Of a stretch of 38,899 nt of DNA, positions 33,411 to 38,899 are shown piece by piece. Below the pieces are notes generated by a model. The model was not told where the DNA came from, ran no database searches, and saw nothing but the letters and a program-made list of their open reading frames with translations. The first letter of the stretch is position 1. Each line of letters starts with the position of its first letter. The translations under genes and the position numbers were made by a program. The stretch is from Dehalococcoidia bacterium (GTDB taxonomy: Bacteria; Chloroflexota; Dehalococcoidia; UBA2979): assembly GCA_019694855.1 (NCBI GenBank), contig JAIBBD010000015.1, positions 1 through 38,899 of the forward strand. The letters are read 5' to 3'.

Positions 33411-36695
<3,285 letters not shown>

Positions 36696-36715: not shown

Positions 36716-36759
36716 AGGAAGCGCGTAGCGACTCTGGGCAAAACCGCTACGCGCTTCCT
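36716..36759 (+). terminator. terminator hairpin after ileS
   Basis: A perfect 15-bp stem (AGGAAGCGCGTAGCG / CGCTACGCGCTTCCT) with a 14-nt loop lies 20 nt after the ileS stop. No T-run follows. Its end is next to the promoter of the repeat-protein gene. Confidence 0.75.
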
Positions 36760-36766
36760 GTCACCG

Positions 36767-36795
36767 TTGGCGCGCCACCACGGTCGGAGTATCGT
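36767..36795 (+). promoter_or_regulatory. promoter of the repeat-protein gene with overlapping palindrome
   Basis: -35 TTGGCG (36767-36772) and -10 TATCGT (36790-36795) are separated by 17 bp. The 10-bp palindrome TGGCGCGCCA (36768-36777) overlaps the -35, so it may be a repressor site. The predicted start near 36802 leaves a short leader with AGGTGGGGG as the ribosome-binding site. Confidence 0.5.
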
Positions 36796-36824
36796 CATCC
36801 CCGAGGCGCAGGTGGGGGTGCACG

Positions 36825-37451
36825 ATGGGCGAGAAAGAGACCGCGGACGAGGCCAGCAACCTCAACCTCTCGAAGTCAAACCGCGTGGCTGGCCAGGAGG
36901 GCGGCATCGCGGTCGGTGACGAGGGAGTCAGGGCCGCCGGGCCGCGAGGTGGCGGCGAGCCCCTTGAGGCCACGAACCTCAACAGCTCGCGCTCAAACCG
37001 CGTGATGGGCCCCGGGGCGGACAGTGCCGGTGGGCTTCCCGACTCGGGCGATCCCGCCGAGGCCGTCATCAACACCAGCCGCTCGAACATCAAGGGCCGC
37101 GTGGCGGGCGGGCCGGGCGGCGACCTCGACGGCGCCGATGCTGGCGACGGCGATCCTGCCGAAGCCGCTGTCAACACCAGCCACTCCAACATCAAGAACC
37201 TCCGCGCCGCAGAGGTCGACGACCCTGCAGGCGATCCCGCCGACTCGACCAAACTGAACTCCTCCAAGTCAAACGCCTATCGCGAGGCAGCGACCGAACC
37301 CGAAGGCGACCCCGGCGCCGCGGAACGCACCGCCCCGAAGACACGGAGCAACATCCAGAACAACCGCGAGGCCGCGCCTGACACCGGCGACAGCCCCGAG
37401 CCCGCCGAGGGCGCCATCGTGAAGAGCAAGAGCAACATCACCAACAACTAG
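36825..37451 (+). CDS. seven-repeat hydrophilic protein, candidate modification substrate
   Basis: The 208-residue protein has no cysteine, no signal peptide and no hydrophobic core. It carries seven degenerate copies of a motif of the form N-x-(S/T)-(K/R/H)-S-N. The SxSN cores are at 16-19 (SKSN), 55-58 (SRSN), 85-88 (SRSN), 119-122 (SHSN), 147-150 (SKSN), 173-176 (TRSN) and 201-204 (SKSN), spaced 26-39 residues. Linkers are rich in Gly, Asp, Pro, Glu and Ala, often GDPAEA. It ends right after the seventh copy. The layout resembles multi-core precursor peptides or a polymeric substrate. A ligase-like gene starts 28 nt downstream. No family is recognised; a structural or disordered role is the alternative. 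Confidence 0.78.
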   Translation: MGEKETADEASNLNLSKSNRVAGQEGGIAVGDEGVRAAGPRGGGEPLEATNLNSSRSNRVMGPGADSAGGLPDSGDPAEAVINTSRSNIKGRVAGGPGGDLDGADAGDGDPAEAAVNTSHSNIKNLRAAEVDDPAGDPADSTKLNSSKSNAYREAATEPEGDPGAAERTAPKTRSNIQNNREAAPDTGDSPEPAEGAIVKSKSNITNN

Positions 37452-37479
37452 GCCCCGCGCTCCCCGGGACGCCCGCGCG

Positions 37480-38899
37480 ATGGACGCGACTGCCGAGGCG
37501 TCCCCGTCGCTCCTCGCAGGCCTGGCGACCGGGGCGACGCCCCCCGGCGGACTGATCGGCATCGAGCACGAGTACCGCGTCCTCGACGCCGCGGGCCGGC
37601 AAGTGGACTTCCGCACGCTGCTGCATACCCTCCCCGTCGACGGCCTCCGCCTCGACCCCGGCGACGCGAACGCATACCGCCTCACCTCGGGCCTGGCGCT
37701 CACCGCCGACGAGGCGGAGGCCGAGGTGGCCACGCCCCCCGTCACGGTCGAGACCGGCTTCGCCCCTCGCACCGCCGCCCTCGCCGCCGAGGCGAGGGCC
37801 ACCCTTGAAGGCCTGCTCCCCGCCGGCCTCACCCTCGAGGGCTACTCCACCCACGTCAGCGTCTCGGTCCCCGACGCAGAAGTGGCCTCCGTCGCCGCCC
37901 GCTACGCCCGCACCTACGCGCCCGCGTTCGCCGCCCTCGCCGAGCGACCCGACTCGCTGGGCATCTACGTCCGCCCGCGCCCGGGCCGCCTCGAACTGTG
38001 CGCCGACTACGTCGAGCCCGCCCGGCTGCCGCCCATCCTGGCCTTCGCCGCCGGCACCGTGCGTGCCTGCGTCGCCGAAATCCGTGCCGCCGAAGAGCGC
38101 CTCGTGCCGCTCACCCTCGACCTCCACCCCGCGCGCGAGCGTCCCGGCTACCGCGTCCACCGCCACCTCGCCTTCGGCTTCGACCTGTACGCCGCCGGAC
38201 GCGAAGCCGTGCTCCCGCTCGACGGCGGCGGCACAACCACCCTCTCCGACCGTCTCGCCACTGCCGCCCGCCTCGCCGAGGAGCGCCTCGGCCGAGACCT
38301 CGACGCCCCGACGGCCGCCCTCTTGCGCGCGATCGTTCAGGGCGGCGCTCCCCTCGGCATCGAGGGCGGCGAGGACGTGAACGACATCGAGGACGCCCCG
38401 CTGCCCCCTACGAACGGCTGGCGTCCCGCCCCCCGCGCTTTCCACCGCCCCGGCTTCGAGGTCGTTCCTGTCCTCGCTACGTGGGACTTCACCGCCTTCC
38501 GTCTCGACGGCCCCCGCCGCGCGTACGCCTCGATCCCGCTCGCCAGCCTCGAGGCATTCGAACGCGATCTCGCCGGCGGCCGTCTCGATGGCGAAGTCCA
38601 CCGCTTCCTCGCGCAGCGGCCGGCCGGCCGCACCCTCGAAACGCCCGAGGACGCACGCCGCCCCGCCCTCTACGACGAGCTCGCGTCCGACCCGACGGCG
38701 CTCCTCGCCCCGGAGCCCGGCCAGAAAGCTGCGTCTCGAAGCGTCCCCGGCCGCGTCGGCAAACCCGCGCGCCCCGGCAAGGTCGTGGCCGCCCGGCCGC
38801 TCGAACTCCCGCGCCCGCTCCAGCCGCCTCCGCCACTGCCGCCCCGGCCCGCGAGGAGCGAGCCGCCGTCGGACCTGCCTTCGATGCCGTCGCCGCCCC
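37480..38899 (+). CDS. GCS/amidoligase-fold carboxylate-amine ligase-like protein, 3' end outside window
   Basis: The frame runs open to the right edge (473 residues visible). The N-terminal part shows landmarks of the glutamate-cysteine ligase/amidoligase fold: GLIGIEHEYRV with the metal-type E-x-E (Glu29, Glu31), AEVATPPV (Glu82, Pro86-Pro87), STHVSVSV (His125) and GRLELCADY (Arg170, Glu172). Such enzymes join carboxylates to amines using ATP. After about residue 300 come a second region and a Pro-rich linker (LPRPLQPPPPLPPRP, about 443-457), suggesting another domain follows outside the window. ATG 37480 has a weak ribosome-binding site. The adjacent repeat protein may be its substrate; this is inference. 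Fold assignment rests on motifs only. Confidence 0.7.
   Translation, partial: MDATAEASPSLLAGLATGATPPGGLIGIEHEYRVLDAAGRQVDFRTLLHTLPVDGLRLDPGDANAYRLTSGLALTADEAEAEVATPPVTVETGFAPRTAALAAEARATLEGLLPAGLTLEGYSTHVSVSVPDAEVASVAARYARTYAPAFAALAERPDSLGIYVRPRPGRLELCADYVEPARLPPILAFAAGTVRACVAEIRAAEERLVPLTLDLHPARERPGYRVHRHLAFGFDLYAAGREAVLPLDGGGTTTLSDRLATAARLAEERLGRDLDAPTAALLRAIVQGGAPLGIEGGEDVNDIEDAPLPPTNGWRPAPRAFHRPGFEVVPVLATWDFTAFRLDGPRRAYASIPLASLEAFERDLAGGRLDGEVHRFLAQRPAGRTLETPEDARRPALYDELASDPTALLAPEPGQKAASRSVPGRVGKPARPGKVVAARPLELPRPLQPPPPLPPRPARSEPPSDLPSMPSPP

Follow-up and report, generated by a model that had tools for sequence, protein, structure and literature searches.

The window (the whole stretch of DNA that was analysed, 38,899 bases) ends in two adjacent forward-strand genes, with ileS (33411-36695) lying upstream of them. 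The first of the pair, at 36825-37451, encodes a disordered protein of 208 residues that contains no F, W or C and is rich in A, G, S, N, D, E and P. After a gap of 28 nt comes an open reading frame at 37480-38898, which is still open where the contig stops. In position and spacing, this is the gene pair that the original prediction had described as a repeat-rich substrate-like protein beside an amidoligase-fold enzyme. That prediction also gave the pair its own promoter and set it off from ileS by a terminator. The interval does contain a forward-strand hairpin of 15 perfect base pairs (36716-36759; stem 36716-36730 / 36745-36759) with a folding energy of -29 kcal/mol (z -4.1), but the hairpin lacks a U-tract and is therefore not a canonical intrinsic terminator. 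A search upstream of the pair found nothing that resembles a promoter. Rfam searches around the start of the first gene gave chance-level matches only, and searches of Pfam and NCBIfam with both window proteins returned zero matches.

The 208-residue protein begins with M-G-E-K-E (ATG GGC GAG AAA GAG, 36825-36839), residues that are kept across the related loci described below. Its body carries seven copies of a short (S/T)(K/R/H)SN motif on the forward strand: SKSN (36870-36881), SRSN (36987-36998), SRSN (37077-37088), SHSN (37179-37190), SKSN (37263-37274), TRSN (37341-37352) and SKSN (37425-37436). The last lies within VKSKSNITNN, a stretch that recurs in the proteins of genomes G147 and G304. 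Seven copies compare with a mean of 0.03 and a maximum of 2 in 20,000 shuffles. The longer repeat first proposed, N-x-(S/T)-(K/R/H)-S-N, is complete in only five of the seven, the remaining two reading KTRSN and KSKSN. Between the first two copies, GGIAVGDEGVR (36900-36932) is a variant of the GIAIDEEGVQR found in other MGEKE proteins.

Fold, conserved residues and membrane coupling of the ligase

Profile searches with the second protein identified 17 homologous domains or loci, spread over 14 genomes that represent five families of Chloroflexota. Besides the window gene, the set has a paralogue from the same genome (contig C38), 40% identical to it, and genes from families f33, f104, f113 and f90. 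The ligase has no Pfam, NCBIfam or PADLOC family match, and hmmscan of the 17 domains at E<=1 detected neither PF04107 (GCS2), which is also unmatched in the window's own genome, nor PF03136 (Pup ligase/depupylase). A search of PDB sequences with the ligase profile gave nothing credible. PADLOC left the window proteins unmatched and gave two homologues only low-complexity PD-T4-6 hits (E 0.15-0.28); a PADLOC defence system was dropped as a candidate. A literature search on the motifs found no paper, although the amidoligase survey of Iyer et al. 2009 might nonetheless list the family.

We compared AlphaFold models with solved structures. The model of the window protein matched YbdK (1tt4) with a VIA Z of 19.2, Dop (5lrt) with 17.8 and PafA (4bjr) with 16.3, and an independent model of a homologue gave 18.4, 17.8 and 16.4 for the same three proteins, with AF2 confidence good in the core and low in linkers, at the C-terminus and outside the core. 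Other matches of the models included glutamate-cysteine ligases (Z 13-17) and many glutamine synthetases (about 10-11). The original prediction had hinged on a structural match to the GCS/GS-like amidoligase fold, and both models provide one.

The motifs GxExE, T-x-D-x4-E-x-A-x-P-P, STH and R-x-R-x2-R-x-E are all present in this protein, and they are invariant or nearly so in the 17 homologues. The first, GIEHE (residues 27-31; 37558-37572, forward strand, as are those that follow), supplies the presumed Mg/ATP glutamates; its G, E and E are invariant in the 17-sequence alignment and correspond to GhExE, the ATP-binding motif of the carboxylate-amine ligase superfamily (PMC7947786). The second, T-x-D-x4-E (residues 75-82; 37702-37725), has an invariant D and E with the spacing of Y92-x-D94-x4-E99 in Dop, and the position of the Dop tyrosine is held by Thr or Ala. 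Dop coordinates metal through residues that include E8, E10, Y92, E99 and H155, and D94 is catalytic (PMC8599861). The invariant STH (residues 123-125; 37846-37854) may offer a counterpart of H155, and R-P-R-P-G-R-L-E (residues 165-172; 37972-37995) forms an invariant R/R/R/E strand. Read from the alignment, these residues fit an active enzyme. A profile-profile comparison (hhalign) with Chloroflexota PafA/Dop was not significant (17% probability), so the placement in the superfamily draws on fold and motif spacing and does not extend to membership of PafA/Dop. We conclude that the modelled structures place the ligase family in the carboxylate-amine-ligase (GS/GCS/PafA) fold class.

The window encodes the first 473 residues of the ligase, and the 3' part, with an expected transmembrane (TM) helix and external domain, lies past the contig end. 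In 12 homologues with a long C-terminus, the catalytic domain is followed by one hydrophobic TM helix and then by a Thr/Pro/Ser-rich external region. For four shorter members, a TM-containing ORF, called by hydropathy only, lies directly downstream and overlaps the ligase gene. The external domains include PKD, above the Pfam cut-off in two members, and a weak bacterial SH3 match in one. Wherever the gene is complete, then, the ligase is coupled to a predicted TM segment. The enzyme domain is probably cytosolic, judging from the order of the parts and from flanking charges that are themselves suggestive only. The paralogue on contig C38 belongs to a second, divergent copy of the system (L006:2185-4957), in which two small MVEKPT proteins precede a 724-aa ligase that carries both the TM helix and the external domain.

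The N-terminal tag and the proteins that carry it

Directly upstream of all 17 ligases, on the same strand, lies a low-complexity ORF that starts with M-(G/V/S)-E-K or, at one locus, with M-E-K-G-N. All 17 of the upstream windows contain a tag ORF with a length of 38 aa or more, compared to 5 of 404 control windows from the same loci. The tag proteins at ligase loci were chosen by a pattern containing E-K, and the invariance of these two residues is partly a product of that selection, though every locus complied. The original prediction looked to neighbouring genes in relatives, and the two genes adjoin at every one of the 17 loci found. Together with the fold match, this pairing gives good support to the idea of a substrate and its enzyme.

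Across loci, the codons of the tag vary synonymously while its residues stay constant, and the start codon is ATG or GTG. Closely related tag genes have dN/dS values of 0.13-0.24, equal to or below those of their ligases. This low dN/dS, together with codon change that leaves the residues intact, indicates that the tag genes encode real, selected proteins. When mapped onto the ligase tree, the tag types need 5 changes, the smallest number possible, and 0 of 200 shuffles reach a number as low; the tag variants therefore track the ligase tree, and tag and ligase have coevolved. Three loci have tandem tag ORFs in which the local tag is repeated (MVEKPT twice, MEKGN three times and MGEKGI twice) and the bodies differ.

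The bodies of the partner proteins are mostly unrelated, and include poly-Gly/Ser, zinc-ribbon and helical forms among others. At L023:9452-9577, for example, the tagged protein (MSEKP...) has 41 residues and is small and zinc-ribbon-like, unlike the disordered partners at other loci. At L049:10513-12092, two more low-complexity proteins lie upstream of the tag gene, one of which repeats (S/A)(V/M)RADYEAVVP. The SxSN motif is confined to the clade of the window, which rules out the repeats as the defining element of the system. Hence the earlier view of the SKSN repeats as a multi-site substrate or as core peptides does not generalize, as most partners have no such repeats and what they have in common is the M-G-E-K tag. 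Across the partners, the conserved element is this N-terminal tag and not the repeat. The original prediction missed the tag, and the membrane anchor, the external domain and the dispersed tagged proteins lay beyond its view.

A scan for MGEKE starts found eleven additional tagged proteins whose genes are distant from every ligase gene. G109 has three of them and G304 has one, and others are in G308, G313, G314 and G317. The last four genomes (69-82% complete) hold MGEKE proteins without a detected ligase, and this counts against our best explanation. In more complete ligase-less genomes of the same family, MGEKE hits are chance-like, very short or within other genes. Tagged proteins from different genera have 55 6-mers in common, compared to 1.5 in shuffles, and draw on a vocabulary of motifs that includes NLNSSKSN, SHSNIKNL, VKSKSNITNN, GIAIDEEGVQR, IKMGSVEGE and RQTPKRDFGD. 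A genome that has a single ligase but several tagged proteins encoded at scattered sites suggests that the enzyme acts in trans.

Several of the MGEKE proteins have distinctive features or surroundings. A 624-aa protein at L112:2511-4382, cut by the contig end, contains many RESPTRASTGR and IAIEEEGVQ repeats and a HEAAHVVQQ stretch with a weak match to an eCIS core domain (E 0.022). About 4 kb from the gene for another, L068:3126-4406, a gene bears the stretch LQRAAGNRAV, which is known from eCIS-associated proteins. A link between MGEKE proteins and contractile injection systems is possible. In two species of one genus, MGEKE proteins have a conserved neighborhood between a Cys-rich gene (CPAHCC) and uvrB (L067:7670-9082 and L118:6453-7388), and those at L020:11212-11394 and L107, from different genera, have a common C-terminal HDT(A/V)KN(T/S)I(Q/G)N(M/I)R.

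We also considered how the pair came to be in this genome. The window ileS is 67-77% identical to its counterparts in seven genomes of its own family and 46% to that of an eighth. Against f33, the family with the nearest ligases, identity is mostly 55-58%, with one partial segment at 67%. These values favor the window's own family, so the contig is correctly binned and contamination is ruled out. The other sampled genomes of that family contain no ligase, and in the ligase tree the window sequence nests inside the f33 clade. From these sequence comparisons, horizontal transfer or patchy, differential loss is the likely origin of the pair. A scan of contigs with exact peptide patterns, which would miss most family members, returned two relatives only, a Thermoflexaceae MAG and a Chloroflexi groundwater MAG. 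An origin in phages, plasmids or viruses was dropped, as searches of plasmids, viral contigs and viral structures gave no relatives.

Proposed function and competing explanations

We favor, with a probability of roughly 0.55, a reading in which the locus encodes a dedicated substrate together with a membrane-anchored, ATP-dependent carboxylate-amine ligase that reads, and probably modifies, the N-terminal tag of a family of disordered proteins. The catalytic domain of the enzyme would be N-terminal. Behind it, either on the same polypeptide or encoded by the next ORF, would come a TM helix and an external region that is rich in Thr and Pro and bears a PKD or SH3-like domain. The enzyme would recognize intrinsically disordered proteins through M-(G)-E-K-(E/G). 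Because this fold class activates a carboxylate with ATP and the tag conserves both Glu and Lys, modification at the tag itself is favored. Most likely, the side chain of the tag Glu would be activated as an acyl phosphate and then joined to an amine in an amide bond. The Lys of another tag would be the most economical donor, yielding tag proteins cross-linked or conjugated through gamma-Glu-epsilon-Lys bonds; a small amine or a Lys on another protein could serve instead. PafA forms gamma-glutamyl-lysine isopeptides (PMC7947786), and by analogy Glu-Lys cross-linking or conjugation at the tag is the favored, leading possibility. The body modules SxSN, GIAIDEEGVQR and IKMGSVEGE may be functional cargo or binding modules.

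The closest competitor, which we regard as unlikely, treats the tagged protein as a Pup-like label, whose N-terminal Glu or another carboxylate would be joined to lysines of cellular proteins to mark them or anchor them to the membrane. Dop and PafA are among the closest solved folds, the D-x4-E spacing is that of Dop, and the partner is small and disordered as Pup is; several different tagged proteins per genome also suit a set of labels. However, 31 tagged proteins show no conservation at the C-terminus and not one of them ends in GGE or GGQ, the conserved Glu being next to the N-terminus instead. In addition, the MGEK genomes have no PafA/Dop homologue, whereas other Chloroflexota have true Pup enzymes.

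We are more doubtful still that MGEK is a minimal docking leader in a RiPP-like pathway, with body modules (for instance SxSN, IAIxEEGVQ or IKMGSVEGE) that would be modified to give multi-core peptides. The window protein has SxSN seven times, modular motifs are repeated and kept between genera, and the bodies are under purifying selection, all of which is consistent with such precursors. Yet homologous enzymes at other loci are paired with bodies that have no common motif, and neither a maturation peptidase nor an exporter recurs beside the pair. Finally, a non-catalytic, regulatory tag that docks disordered scaffolds to localize a membrane enzyme acting on a small molecule, as a YbdK/GCS-like gamma-glutamyl ligase would, has YbdK as the top match of both models and the likeness of the bodies to scaffolds of short linear motifs in its favor, but is improbable given that multiple tagged proteins per ligase and tandem tag duplications better fit a family of substrates and that the tag invariantly holds both a carboxylate and an amine.

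Returning to an enzyme that modifies the tag, the fuller version of this model is a new protein-conjugation system, in which a receptor-like TM ligase would use the Glu and Lys of a universal M-G-E-K tag to cross-link many different disordered motif proteins into an assembly at the membrane, on a cue from outside. We offer it tentatively. More generally, our results suggest that a previously unnamed membrane-tethered ligase and the M-G-E-K proteins make up an undescribed system that joins or modifies tagged proteins. Dedicated enzyme-protein tagging systems are few in bacteria, and Pup is the best known of this fold. If true, this would be a second such system, one in which a TM enzyme with an external domain reads an N-terminal tag, not a C-terminus, on a whole family of disordered proteins built from motifs. 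It would open a new route from outside signals to covalent protein assembly and supply a tag that is short and portable, for use in ligating proteins enzymatically, and the simple tag-ligase rule is directly testable in E. coli.

Relation to known systems

The domain layout of the ligase is reminiscent of bacterial receptor-type Ser/Thr kinases, in which an enzyme domain is followed by a single TM helix, a Pro/Thr-rich linker and a small external domain of the PASTA, SH3 or PKD type. In the MGEK system, however, the enzyme has a carboxylate-amine-ligase fold and is not a kinase. Graspetides and other multi-core RiPPs offer a repeat-bearing, precursor-like protein beside an amide-forming enzyme. 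The MGEK enzyme is not an ATP-grasp protein, which sets the system apart from graspetides; moreover, its partners conserve the tag and not the repeats, and the neighborhood has no peptidase or transporter. YbdK and the GCS2 family share GxExE, and both models score highest against this fold (Z 18-19), but the MGEK ligase does not match PF04107 and differs in having a conserved protein partner, a TM segment and an external domain.

The strongest likeness is to PafA-Pup and Dop, with which the MGEK system shares the ligase fold (Z 16-18), GxExE, the Dop-like D-x4-E spacing and a small disordered partner. A true Pup system is nevertheless ruled out by the unmatched PF03136, the non-significant hhalign comparison, the lack of a C-terminal GG(E/Q) and the lack of PafA/Dop in these genomes; a PF03136 search of 12 MGEK genomes gave no match. 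Of the 301 Chloroflexota genomes sampled, 34 have canonical PafA/Dop pairs (L069-L080); they belong to five families that do not overlap those with MGEK, and the survey in one paper lists other phyla and not Chloroflexota (PMC7947786). Whereas Pup has a C-terminal Glu/Gln, the MGEK partner is conserved at its N-terminus, and each genome has several unrelated partners. The ligase, for its part, has no sequence-family match and adds a membrane anchor and an external domain. The MGEK system thus works most like PafA-Pup while standing outside that family.
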